Shown in pieces: positions 32,411 through 36,944 of a DNA stretch of 38,511 bases (the first letter of the stretch is position 1; every line of letters starts with the position of its first letter). The notes below the pieces were generated by a model. That model did not search any database and had not been told where the DNA came from. It was given only the letters and a program-made list of their open reading frames with translations. A program made the translations under genes and the position numbers. Source of the DNA: Chitinophaga pinensis (GTDB taxonomy: Bacteria > Bacteroidota > Bacteroidia > NS11-12g > UBA9320); the NCBI GenBank assembly GCA_945889315.1, contig CAMDBP010000016.1, forward strand, positions 1 to 38,511, given 5' to 3'.

Positions 32411-33622
32411 ATGAATTTTCCAATATACTTAGACAATAACGCAACTACACCAATGGATCCGAGAGTTTTGGATGCAATGCTTCCTTATTTTAATGAAAAA
32501 TTTGGTAACGCGGCAAGTAGGAACCATAGTTTTGGATGGAATGCAGAAGAAGCGGTAGACTATGCTCGTGAGCAAGTAGGTCGCTTAATAGGCTGCACAA
32601 GTAAAGAAATAATTTTCACTTCAGGTGCTACAGAAGCCAACAACTTGGCTATCAAAGGGGTGTATGAAATGTATGGCTCTCAAGGTAATCACATGATTAC
32701 AGTAACTACGGAGCATAAAGCTACGTTGGATGCATGCAAAAAAGTAGAGAAAATGGGTGGAGAAGTAACCTATCTCTCGCCAAATGAAGATGGCTTGATA
32801 AACTTATCTGACTTGGAAGCAGCCATTACGGATAAAACCATACTTATTACGATTATGTATGGTAACAATGAAATTGGCGTGATTCAAGATATTAAGGCAA
32901 TTTCAGCAATTGCGAAGAAAAATGGAATCTTATTTCACACAGATGCTACGCAAACGGTAGGGAAAATACCTGTTGATGTAATAGCAGACGGAATAGACCT
33001 AATGAGTTTTACCGCACATAAAATGTATGGACCAAAAGGGGTAGGTGCTTTATATGTAAGACGTAAAAATCCACGTGTAAAAGTAACTAGTCAAATGGAT
33101 GGCGGGGGTCATGAAAGAGGGATGCGAAGTGGAACCTTAAATGTACCGGGTATAGTTGGATTCGGTAAAGCTTGCGAAATAGCACAAAACGAGATGGCTG
33201 AAGAGGCCATACGTTTAAGCGTAATGCGTGATAGATTGGAAAAAGAGCTTTTGACGATAGAAGAGGCATATGTAAACGGAAACACACAACATAGGCTTCC
33301 ACACGTTGCCAATATTTCTTTTAAATTTGTAGAAGGAGAAGGGCTTATGATGGGAACAAAAGACATCGCGGTAAGCAGCGGTAGTGCATGCACAAGTGCA
33401 TCTTTAGAACCAAGTTATGTGCTTAAAAGTTTAGGTTTAGATGATGAATTGGCACATTCATCTCTTCGCTTTGGATTAGGCAGATTTACTACGGATGAAG
33501 AAATAGATTTTGCCATTGAGCACGTAAAAACTGCGGTAAATAAATTACGAGATATGAGTCCACTTTGGGAAATGTTTAAAGACGGTATAGACCTCAAAAC
33601 AATAGAGTGGGCTGAACACTAA
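32411..33622 (+). CDS. iscS: Cysteine desulfurase IscS
   Basis: [50 protein letters not shown]; active-site [21 protein letters not shown]. Confidence 0.97.
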
Positions 33623-33725
33623 AAAAAGGATACCGAAGGTAAAAATTAAAAATTATATAACAGTTAAATTCAGACTTGACATCAATAGATGCACTTCTTG
33701 AACTAGACACAATCAAAAGAAAAAT

Positions 33726-34142
33726 ATGGCATATTCAGAAAAAGTAATCGATCATTATCAAAATCCAAGAAATATTGGTACACTTAATAAAGAAAGTAAA
33801 ATGGTAGGGACTGGCTTAGTGGGCGCACCAGAATGCGGTGACGTAATGCGTCTACAAATAGAAGTAGATGACGCGACTGGTATTATTAAAGATGCAAAGT
33901 TTAAAACCTTTGGTTGCGGATCGGCTATCGCATCTTCGTCTCTTGCTACAGAGTGGCTTAAAGGAAAAACAATAGAAGCTGCTATGGAAATTGATAATAT
34001 GGATATCGTAGAGGAATTAGCCTTGCCGCCAGTTAAAATTCACTGTTCTGTATTGGCAGAAGATGCGATCAAAATGGCCATAAACGATTACCGAGTAAAA
34101 CAAGGTCTAGCCCCTATAGAGGACAACAAAAAGCACTACTAG
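33726..34142 (+). CDS. iscU: Fe-S cluster assembly scaffold IscU
   Basis: MAYSEKVIDHYQNPRNIGTL; GAPECGDVM, FGCGSAIASSS, PPVKIHCSVLAEDAI. Confidence 0.97.
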   Translation: MAYSEKVIDHYQNPRNIGTLNKESKMVGTGLVGAPECGDVMRLQIEVDDATGIIKDAKFKTFGCGSAIASSSLATEWLKGKTIEAAMEIDNMDIVEELALPPVKIHCSVLAEDAIKMAINDYRVKQGLAPIEDNKKHY

Positions 34143-34168
34143 TGCTCGATAGATTTAAAAAATGAACA

Positions 34169-34191
34169 GTTAATGGTTGTATACCATTAAC
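34169..34191. promoter_or_regulatory. Perfect 9-bp inverted repeat between iscU and iscA (GTTAATGGT-TGTAT-ACCATTAAC)
   Basis: Arms 34169-34177 and 34183-34191 are exact reverse complements; no T tract follows. Confidence 0.6.
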
Positions 34192-34221
34192 AGATAAACC
34201 AATAATAAGTAACCTAAAAAG

Positions 34222-34548
34222 ATGATTACAGTATCAGAAAGAGCGGCAAATCAAGTAAACACATTAATGCAGACCGAAGGTTTGAATGAAGGTTTTTTTA
34301 TTCGTGTCTCTGTTGTAGGTGGTGGTTGTTCTGGCCTAAGCTATAAAATGGACTTTGACAATGAGTCCCAAGAAAATGACCAGGTTTTCGAAAGTAACGG
34401 ATACAAAGTAGTTTGTGATATGAAAAGCTTTCTTTACCTATGCGGAACAGAACTTGATTTTACAGACGGTTTGAATGGAAAAGGATTCCAGTTTAATAAT
34501 CCTAATGCAAATAGAACCTGCGGTTGTGGCGAGAGTTTCTCTGTTTAA
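34222..34548 (+). CDS. iscA: Iron-sulfur cluster assembly A-type carrier (IscA/HesB)
   Basis: GGGCSGLSYKMDF and CGCG C-terminal cysteines (NRTCGCGESFSV). Confidence 0.95.
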   Translation: MITVSERAANQVNTLMQTEGLNEGFFIRVSVVGGGCSGLSYKMDFDNESQENDQVFESNGYKVVCDMKSFLYLCGTELDFTDGLNGKGFQFNNPNANRTCGCGESFSV

Positions 34549-34568
34549 TCAGAACAAATAGTTCGACG

Positions 34569-34609
34569 AAAAAGCCATGATTTAGTTGACTAGATCATGG
34601 CTTTTTTTT
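34569..34609. terminator. Rho-independent terminator after iscA
   Basis: AAAAAGCCATGAT (34569-34581) / ATCATGGCTTTTT (34594-34606) plus T tract to 34609. Confidence 0.92.
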
Positions 34610-34673
34610 GAACCTATTCACATCTTTTTCAACAGCAATAAAATAGATAAGACAATAAACTACATTTGAACGA

Positions 34674-35684
34674 GTGCAACGTAACGCTAAAATAATTTCA
34701 CGCCTCACCGCTCTTTGGGCATTGTCCGAAGCGGGATTAGGAGGAGTTTTACACGCAATTCAGTTTCCGTTTACGGGCTTATTTGTAGGTGGATTTGCTA
34801 TTGTACTTATTAGTCTAATTGCTTATTTTGCAGATGATAAATGGGAAACTATTTTTAGATCACTTCTGGTAGTTTTAATAATAAAGCTAGCAGTTAGTCC
34901 TCATTCTCCTCCAACGAGTTACTTAGCTGTTTCGTTTCAGGCATTTATGGCAGCCTTAATTTTTAATAAACTGCGTATTAGCATGTGGAGTACGATGCTT
35001 TTAGGGGTTACAACACTGATAGAGTCAGCCATTCAAAAAGTCTTAGTAGTTTGGATTGTATACGGTAGTTCGTTATGGAATGCTATTGATGGATTTAGCG
35101 AATATGTTATTCAGAAGATGGGTTTATTCGGTGAATTATTTTCCTCTCAAGCGTTAATCTCAGTTTATCTTTGGACGTATGCCATTTTAGGTTTGGTAAT
35201 TGGCTACATGATCTATAATATCATCCAATATATGGATTATAATCAAGGTAATGTCAAGTATCAAATTCAAGCGATTGAGTTTGAAGAGAATCTAGGAGAA
35301 TTGAGAAAGAGAAGAGGCTTATGGAAGCAATGGATACTGTTTGGGACATTTTTTGCACTTATAGCAACCTATTATTTCTTTGTGAAAGACGGTAAATCTG
35401 TATGGGGGAATTGGCTTTACATTACACTTCGTAGTGCGGGTATATTGCTTCTTTGGTATTATGTGTTAGCTCGTTATTTTAAAAAGTACTTTGCAAAGTA
35501 CTTAGAAGGTAAAAAATTCAAAGTCCAAAAGGAAGTAGATGAAACCATGACATTACTGCCCTATTTAAGAAAGGTCGCAGCATTAGCTTGGCAAGAAAAT
35601 AAGCATACCAAGGGTCCTACGAAATTTAGAGACTTTTTGGGCGATACTATATTATACAGTATACATCTTACAATTGAGGAATGA
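34674..35684 (+). CDS. Uncharacterised polytopic membrane protein (GTG start; about 8 predicted TM segments by eye)
   Basis: Hydrophobic N-terminal domain ALWALSEAGLGGVLHAIQFPFTGLFVGGFAIVLISLIAYF..., a charged linker, then a C-terminal TM pair and basic cytoplasmic-type tail. Confidence 0.85.
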   Translation: MQRNAKIISRLTALWALSEAGLGGVLHAIQFPFTGLFVGGFAIVLISLIAYFADDKWETIFRSLLVVLIIKLAVSPHSPPTSYLAVSFQAFMAALIFNKLRISMWSTMLLGVTTLIESAIQKVLVVWIVYGSSLWNAIDGFSEYVIQKMGLFGELFSSQALISVYLWTYAILGLVIGYMIYNIIQYMDYNQGNVKYQIQAIEFEENLGELRKRRGLWKQWILFGTFFALIATYYFFVKDGKSVWGNWLYITLRSAGILLLWYYVLARYFKKYFAKYLEGKKFKVQKEVDETMTLLPYLRKVAALAWQENKHTKGPTKFRDFLGDTILYSIHLTIEE

Positions 35685-36154
35685 TTTACATCCTAGCAGG
35701 TGACGTAAGAAGTGGCAAAACTTCTGCCCTACAGGAGTGGGTGGATACCTGGGATACCGTAAAAGGAATTATTTGTCCTGACGACTCAGATAATCTTAAA
35801 TATTTGTATAATATTCAATCAAAAGAAAAACATGCATTTCAAAAGTTAGAAGAAGAGAATACTATTTCTGTAGGGAAGTTTCATTTTTTAGAGGATACAT
35901 TTAAGCTGGCTAACTATATTCTAATTAAGTCTTTTGAGGAAGATGATTATGATTTTTTAGTGTTGGATGAGTTAGGTAAACTTGAATTAGATGGGAAAGG
36001 CTTACATCAAGCGGCTAGTTATATCTTAGGTAATTATCAGTCAAATGATAATCAAAATCTGCTGTTAGTAGTACGAACTTCCTTAGTGAAAGAAATTATT
36101 GCTCATTATGACATTAAAGGTTTTCAAATAGTAGCAATTGAGACACTACCCTAA
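35681..36154 (+). CDS. Small P-loop NTPase (THEP1/NTPase_1-like)
   Basis: Walker A GDVRSGKTSALQEW, Walker B FLVLDELGKLELDGKG; start overlaps the upstream stop (ATGA). Confidence 0.75.
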   Translation: MIYILAGDVRSGKTSALQEWVDTWDTVKGIICPDDSDNLKYLYNIQSKEKHAFQKLEEENTISVGKFHFLEDTFKLANYILIKSFEEDDYDFLVLDELGKLELDGKGLHQAASYILGNYQSNDNQNLLLVVRTSLVKEIIAHYDIKGFQIVAIETLP

Positions 36155-36160
36155 CTTTAT

Positions 36161-36751
36161 TTAGCCTATTTGAGCTCGTAAATGCTCATATTCTTCGGGT
36201 GTATTGACGTTGGTGAATTCATTTACATCCAAAATTTGGACTCGTTGATTTCCATATTGATTTAAGAATTGTTGAATAGAACGGCCTCCATTGGTAAAGT
36301 ATTCTTCAAGACACGGAAGGGTTTCAATTTCCCAAATACTAAGCATTGGCTCCCAAGTACGTGTTTCTGTATTATAATAGGTTGTGGTTAGTAAATCCCA
36401 ATTACGGTGTACAATTATGTTTTTAATACTTTGTTTGGTGACTAGTGGTACGTCTACTCCTAATACTACAATACTCGTTTGCGTGAATCTCAGCGCGGAT
36501 ATTATCCCCGATAAAGGACCTTCTTCAGGGTATTCATCAATAATGGTATTATTCAGATGAAGATTTTTTTGCTCTTGATTTATGGAGTAAAAAACATCAG
36601 TAACATAGCATTTAAGTTTGGCATGAGCTAACTGGGCGAAGTTCTTTTTAGTTTCGTTTGTATGGGACGTATTGGCAATGAGTTGTGACTTATCGATCCC
36701 CATTCTGGAGCTTTTGCCACCCATCAATACAATGCCTATTAAATCTGCCAA
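36161..36751 (-). CDS. mobA: Molybdenum cofactor guanylyltransferase MobA
   Basis: IGIVLMGGKSSRMGIDKSQL nucleotidyltransferase motif; EGPLSGIISAL; VVLGVDVPLV. TTG start. Confidence 0.88.
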   Translation of the reverse strand: MADLIGIVLMGGKSSRMGIDKSQLIANTSHTNETKKNFAQLAHAKLKCYVTDVFYSINQEQKNLHLNNTIIDEYPEEGPLSGIISALRFTQTSIVVLGVDVPLVTKQSIKNIIVHRNWDLLTTTYYNTETRTWEPMLSIWEIETLPCLEEYFTNGGRSIQQFLNQYGNQRVQILDVNEFTNVNTPEEYEHLRAQIG

Positions 36752-36761
36752 TGTTTAACTT

Positions 36762-36944
36762 TTAGTTTTTATAGATAGCGTGAGCTAATCCAAACCCTAG
36801 TAATCCGTATATCAATATACTGCTTATCAAATTATCTGTAGAATAACCAAAAGGTAATCCAAACAGAATCCCCATTGATATACCTATGAAATAGCTATTA
36901 CGTTGACTATTGAGTACTAGGTGTTTTTTCATAAGTGGGTTCAA
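36762..36944 (-). CDS. Small (up to 60 aa) hypothetical membrane protein
   Basis: SYFIGISMGILFGLPFGYSTDNLISSILIYGLLGFGLAHAIYKN, two hydrophobic stretches; between mobA and the oxidoreductase gene. Alternative ATG start at 36932. Confidence 0.6.
   Translation of the reverse strand: MNPLMKKHLVLNSQRNSYFIGISMGILFGLPFGYSTDNLISSILIYGLLGFGLAHAIYKN

Follow-up and report, generated by a model that had tools for sequence, protein, structure and literature searches.

The window, a stretch of 38,511 nt from Chitinophaga pinensis (CAMDBP010000016.1), makes up an entire contig of a 2.13-Mb genome whose near relatives include the MAGs 'Bacteroidetes bacterium UBA4009' and 'Bacteroidia bacterium CPBay_Spr15L08_66'. 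Toward its end stand a gene for a membrane protein and a gene for a P-loop NTPase, facing genes of molybdenum metabolism (Table 1). The original prediction had singled out this pair as probably co-translated, preceded by a strong terminator and converging on mobA with 6 nt between stops, and each of these points is borne out. An ATGA overlap joins the membrane ORF to the NTPase ORF, and fusions of the two proteins in other genomes strengthen the case for co-translation; the hairpin ahead of the pair is by folding computation a strong terminator-like structure (-25.5 kcal/mol, z = -8.3); and the coordinates place the mobA stop 6 nt from that of the convergent NTPase gene.

All genus loci read have iscS-iscU-iscA-like genes immediately before the pair (32411-34548 in the window). 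IscS serves as the sulfur source for molybdenum cofactor (Moco) maturation in other bacteria, and this neighbourhood may be functional or incidental. On the far side of mobA, the 60-aa predicted membrane protein has a glycine-rich TM segment and is kept within the genus. The molybdoenzyme at the contig end is assigned through its orthologue in locus L029, which scores 901 bits against TIGR01701 and to which the window copy is 71% identical.

Table 1. Features of the locus, in positions of the window
Feature	Position	Strand	Basis
Membrane protein, 336 aa, GTG start; N-terminal S-component-like bundle and C-terminal T-like segment	34674..35684	+	
S-component-like domain, residues 1-190	34674..35243	+	AF2 models, Foldseek, hhalign, invariant residues
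T-like domain, residues 216-331; predicted TM helices and long helices	35319..35666	+	hhalign
THEP1-type P-loop NTPase, 157 aa (by sequence)	35681..36154	+	PF03266, structure-profile matches
Walker A GDVRSGKT of the NTPase	35699..35722	+	
Walker B and THEP1 signature, VLDELGKLE region, of the NTPase	35954..35986	+	residues invariant in 14 homologues
Intrinsic-terminator-like hairpin between iscS-iscU-iscA and the pair	34563..34612	+	folding energy
mobA, molybdopterin guanylyltransferase	36161..36751	-	PF12804 5.1e-16
60-aa predicted membrane protein between mobA and fdhF	36762..36944	-	genus-wide conservation
FdhF/YdeP-family molybdoenzyme, cut by contig end	36941..38509	-	orthologue in L029

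The membrane protein and its companion NTPase

The membrane protein could be assigned to no known family. Profile searches of Pfam, NCBIfam and the PDB returned no sequence match, including when 35 homologues were scanned individually, in keeping with the original prediction, which had recognized no named family. Given that homologues of 91-93% identity exist, that its gene has a dN/dS of about 0.03-0.06 within the genus where computable, and that homologues of about 30% identity occur across the phylum, the ORF is not a chance one. Both genes of the pair are under purifying selection in the genus (dN/dS about 0.03-0.13 where computable). Across 35 homologues, W15, E19, G23, H27, P32, G35, K71, P76, Q89, G131, and Y165 of the S-like domain are invariant, and R253 in the T-like domain is near-invariant.

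AlphaFold2 models of the membrane protein reached a mean pLDDT of 70 with 16 homologues and 74 with 35, highest in the N-terminal half. The earlier proposal that this half is S-component-like finds support in Foldseek comparisons with the PDB, where FolT S-components matched with probabilities of 0.84, 0.66, 0.57, and 0.51 and TM-scores to the target of 0.42-0.49, although the E-values of 0.4-3 are not significant. Among the matches listed, FolT-type S-components alone exceed a probability of 0.5, and the best S-component E-value is 0.41. No sequence profile ties the long-form membrane protein to a known S-component family. Alignment with hhalign nevertheless joins its N-terminal half to short S-like paralogues (E=2e-21) and its C-terminal half to a T-like protein of ~185 aa (E=1.7e-5), both found in cassettes that are described below. 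The ~185-aa protein in turn aligns with EcfT over a 48-residue stretch (E=4.4e-4); the C-terminal half compared directly with EcfT is not significant (0.12), and T-like and S-like profiles gave no direct sequence link to PDB chains. The short paralogues match weakly, in both cases below cutoff, PF09819 (0.002) and PF09605 (0.008), which we take to be S-component families. As modelled, the N-terminal half thus resembles ECF S-components, and the C-terminal half is, by profile alignment, related to the small EcfT-like protein.

The NTPase is of the THEP1 type by sequence, as had been suggested from its motifs. It matches PF03266 at E=7.6e-9 (36.1 bits against a curated cutoff of 23.9), and its family profile matches the THEP1 structures 1ye8 (Aquifex, 2.5e-6) and 2i3b (human, 0.006). 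Its motifs are the Walker A sequence GDVRSGKT and the Walker B context LVLDELGKLEL; in 14 homologues G12, K13, D96, E97, G99, L101, and E102 are invariant, with both Walker A and DExGxLE present. Neither the MobB family PF03205 nor the ABC_tran domain matched the window NTPase, and the matches of PF03205 to one NTPase paralogue (0.007) and of ABC_tran to one homologue (0.17) are below cutoff.

There is strong evidence that the membrane protein and the NTPase work together, because the two are both adjacent and fused. Separation in most genomes had been named in advance as counting against a functional pair; the NTPase adjoins the long-form membrane gene in 28 of the 38 loci read. In families f1 and f2 it follows the membrane gene directly, on the same strand and with a few-base overlap, in 18/18 loci read with complete genes, and in long-form loci of other families and classes it is adjacent in 10/20. 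A single polypeptide contains both the membrane domain and the NTPase in three distant Bacteroidota (L114, L115, and L116, of 557, 468, and 625 aa), with the NTPase C-terminal in two and N-terminal in the third; in L114 and L116 it comes immediately after the T-like segment. A search for plasmid-borne homologues of a long-form protein found none. In loci outside f1 and f2, a carboxymuconolactone-decarboxylase-like protein of ~107 aa (PF02627 in the single copy scanned) stands beside the membrane gene in L094, L095, L097, L099, L100, L101, L103, L106, and L109.

Molybdenum genes around the pair and cofactor synthesis in its genomes

The association with Moco, first proposed from the window, is strengthened by MobA-NTPase fusions, by the exclusion of synthesis genes, and by riboswitch cassettes. 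In the window genus mobA, fdhD, DUF7009, and fdhF genes stand beside the pair. In most cases the NTPase of sister family f2 forms one chain with MobA, and FdhD, DUF7009, and an FdhF/YdeP-family enzyme come after it. Next to the pair in other classes are PhsA-like, NapA-like, DMSO-reductase type II, and xanthine dehydrogenase genes, or a MobA-like gene, or a protein that by sequence resembles MOSC proteins. Where a genome lacks the membrane protein, its FDH operon contains MobA alone, with neither membrane protein nor NTPase, and the FDH operon of G068 itself carries moaA, moeA, moaE, moaC, and mobA. In most loci read, fdhD and the gene of the FdhF-family enzyme have DUF7009 (PF22668) as a neighbour, a protein of ~120 aa beginning MKIRIKxNSxRxR (L028:2974-3321 and equivalents).

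In relatives of the window genome the membrane gene replaces Moco synthesis. MoaA, MoaC, and MoeA are missing from all 12 genomes of sister family f2 that carry the gene, although molybdoenzymes are present, namely a close FdhF relative in nine (in two of these as fragments or on another contig) and a more distant molybdoenzyme match in the remaining three (g19). Each of the 13 f2 FDH genomes without the membrane gene has at least one of MoaA, MoaC, and MoeA, and MoaA is present in 12/13. The contrast of 12/12 against 0/13 (Fisher 1.9e-7, uncorrected for kinship) corresponds to about two independent swaps on the FDH tree and not to 25 independent genomes, so the test overstates independence. 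Likewise, in an evenly drawn sample of 396 Bacteroidota genomes, the membrane gene or a fusion is carried by 10 of the 14 strong-molybdoenzyme genomes lacking MoaC and by 8/145 of those with MoaC (Fisher 1.7e-8, uncorrected for kinship). A strong molybdoenzyme here means PF01568 at 1e-14 or better, weaker matches being left out because they possibly come from proteins without Moco. The MoaC-less carriers span families f19, f37, f31, f48, and f25, which adds independence. A Bacteroidota survey of the pair against Moco genes, one of the checks put forward with the original prediction, strengthens the proposed Moco association in both samples.

True exceptions in the phylum sample, with a strong molybdoenzyme and neither MoaC nor the membrane gene, are G317, G454, G459, and G467; three of them belong to family f20, whose other members have MoaC, and assembly gaps or recent loss are possible there. 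G049, which has FDH without the membrane gene and without MoaC, was rejected as an exception: MoaA and MoeA are present, and a contig edge truncates its operon. In G147 and G450 MoeA is kept and MoaA and MoaC are missing. MoaA, MoaC, and MoeA are all present in the window's own genome, along with an adjacent MoaE-like gene, and import would therefore not be its sole source of Moco but a supplement to synthesis. Moco synthesis likewise occurs together with the pair in about ten further genomes of the phylum. Such coexistence, together with the MobA fusion, would fit a membrane platform that anchors MobA and the NTPase and hands endogenous Moco to enzymes with no import at all. We consider this improbable, as it leaves unexplained both the molybdoenzyme genomes without MoaA, MoaC, and MoeA and the presence, in the paralogous cassettes, of a TonB-dependent receptor and a Moco riboswitch.

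Those cassettes, reached via weak phylum-wide matches, represent a second architecture in which an S-like paralogue of ~200 aa is accompanied by the ~185-aa T-like protein and a TonB-dependent receptor, and in three loci by a THEP1-type NTPase. The receptors match PF00593 and PF07715 at E<1e-17 in the four scanned. A Moco riboswitch (Rfam RF01055) lies upstream on the same strand in 6/6 cassette loci (L117-L122), at 53-70 bits against a cutoff of 36 and within 184 nt of the S gene; in L121 it overlaps the called S ORF start by 13 nt, and the sequence of L120 ends just after the S gene, the rest of the cassette lying outside the stretch examined. MoaC is absent from five of the six cassette genomes (G147, G220, G312, G320, and G450). 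Given a Moco-sensing RNA in genomes seemingly unable to make Moco from GTP, a riboswitch placed before an outer-membrane receptor and components of the inner membrane most plausibly controls the uptake of Moco. No Moco riboswitch was found at the window or at the other long-form loci scanned. The main text of the 2008 description of the Moco motif mentions neither Bacteroidetes nor TonB (PMC2408646); the riboswitches of L117-L122 are Bacteroidota examples ahead of TonB-dependent receptor cassettes.

An alternative reading of these data is that the membrane protein imports molybdate (or tungstate, or metallophore-bound molybdenum) for the ordinary pathway. Moco riboswitches also control molybdate transporters (PMC2408646), TonB-dependent receptors also take up metal complexes, and modA is absent in all f1 and f2 genomes tested; as the latter include Moco-synthesizing relatives, however, modA is uninformative as a discriminator between importers. 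Import of molybdate nonetheless appears quite improbable. The 12/12 f2 carriers and most MoaC-less carriers elsewhere are without MoaA, and mostly without MoeA, so that molybdate, with no conversion to cofactor, would be useless as cargo, and the sole structural resemblance is to vitamin S-components. It has also to be asked whether the cargo is another small molecule altogether, a vitamin or nucleobase, with molybdenum genes nearby through operon inheritance only. G010 (100% complete) speaks for this, in that its pair is intact and under purifying selection and no FdhF-like gene, MoaA, MoaC, or MoeA was detected. We regard such a cargo as very improbable, since the link recurs with unrelated molybdoenzymes, MobA, and the Moco riboswitch in several families. 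At the G010 locus (L134:490-862) the mobA-fdhF-fdhD-DUF7009 block of sister genomes is missing, with a gap of ~370 bp to the next gene.

Cofactor uptake as the probable function

The pair is probably an inner-membrane uptake system for Moco, as Mo-molybdopterin or molybdopterin, a judgement that covers both an energizing and a processing role of the NTPase. Several lines of evidence favour uptake: the adjacency and fusion of the pair, the MobA-NTPase fusion, and the absence of synthesis genes from carriers in f2 and, for MoaC, from most of the strong-molybdoenzyme carriers sampled across the phylum; molybdoenzyme neighbours of several kinds; the riboswitch cassettes, in all six loci and with five of the six genomes lacking MoaC; and the structural likeness to FolT, which binds folate, also a pterin. 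Against uptake stand the synthesis of Moco by the window genome and the retention of the pair in G010 without detected Moco genes, the Foldseek E-values, which are not significant, the non-adjacent NTPase in half of the phylum loci, the small number of swaps in f2 (about two), and the window and scanned long-form loci without a riboswitch. Free Moco is, moreover, unstable. From the original list of possible cargoes the Moco precursor is kept, and molybdate, nucleobases, and ordinary vitamins now seem less likely than Moco or molybdopterin. The likeliest cargo in f2 is Mo-molybdopterin before GMP addition, because MoeA is mostly missing together with MoaA and MoaC while f2 operons keep MobA; G147 and G450 may import molybdopterin.

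In the uptake scheme, for which we infer inward transport preceded by a step at the outer membrane, the S-component-like half, in whose helices the polar residues E19, H27, K71, and Q89 are invariant, would bind the pterin cofactor on the periplasmic side. The C-terminal T-like half would couple the S-like half to the cytosolic THEP1-type NTPase, which might drive cargo release inside or else receive and process the cargo, a role suggested by the NTPase-MobA fusion. The cofactor would be passed to MobA for addition of GMP and then be used by FdhD and the FdhF-like enzyme.

Whether NTP hydrolysis would power the transport divides two versions of this scheme. It is possible, though less likely than not, that the NTPase acts as a kinase or a processing enzyme, trapping the cargo or handing it on, and that transport itself is not NTP-driven; this version differs on mechanism only, the uptake role being the same and the cargo being Moco, molybdopterin, a dephospho-form, or cPMP. 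It is consistent with the description of 1ye8 as kinase-like and with an NTPase that has no ABC-type match above cutoff, with the MobA fusion, and with G147 and G450, which keep MoeA and lack MoaA and MoaC. The canonical EcfT (PF02361), moreover, is absent in 50/55 genomes with the system, the window's included, and a shared ECF module is therefore not available there; BtuM, an S-component-like B12 transporter in a Gram-negative, works alone without an ECF module (PMC6072759). On the other side, the position of the NTPase behind the T-like segment in L114 and L116 is an energizer-like arrangement, and cPMP is an unlikely cargo since MoeA is absent in most genomes lacking MoaA and MoaC. The bolder version, a self-contained Moco importer in which S-like and reduced T-like domains are energized by a THEP1-family NTPase instead of ABC ATPases, is put forward tentatively and must be counted as doubtful. 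If true, it would be the first bacterial Moco uptake system as well as a new class of NTP-driven transporter.

The system shares features with several known ones. FolT S-components (4huq_S, 7nnt_C, 4z7f_C) offer a likeness to its predicted multi-helix membrane bundle and bind a pterin (folate), but the membrane protein has no sequence match to them, is fused to a T-like half, and is paired with a THEP1 NTPase. THEP1/NTPCR proteins (PF03266; 1ye8, 2i3b) share the sequence family, Walker A, and DExGxLE signature of the NTPase, which differs in having a membrane protein as its coupled or fused partner and, in relatives, MobA as well. MobB (PF03205), the P-loop nucleotide-binding partner of MobA, is likewise a P-loop protein, whereas the NTPase family here is PF03266. 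BtuM is the nearest working analogue, with an S-component-like fold and a large cofactor cargo (both putative for the window system), although the latter has a T-like segment and an NTPase that is adjacent or, elsewhere, fused. ECF transporters under coenzyme riboswitches combine S, T, and NTPase parts as the short cassettes do, except that the cassette NTPase is not ABC-type, and the classes of coenzyme uptake listed do not include Moco (PMC3766115). On the uptake reading the window system would be an S-component kind of transporter in a new form, a new energizing module being the bolder reading.

To our knowledge, cells are generally thought obliged to make Moco themselves. A literature search, with subscription papers and preprints outside its scope, found no bacterial Moco importer, and according to a 2022 paper, exogenous Moco uptake had been neither examined nor observed outside C. 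elegans, where its transport is unknown (PMC9793310). A bacterial Moco importer, if true, would reveal cofactor cross-feeding in natural communities and would explain molybdoenzyme-bearing genomes without a Moco pathway; it would also provide a defined protein for the crossing of membranes by Moco, with a bearing on human Moco deficiency. Should the THEP1 NTPase power the transport, S-component transporters would gain a new energizing module and a poorly understood NTPase family a role. In three genomes, of families in which no modA was found, a TSUP/TauE-like membrane protein stands beside moeA within the Moco gene cluster (L136:5148-5894, L137:5193-5939, and L141:3761-4486) and is a candidate transporter of molybdate or a sulfur oxyanion.
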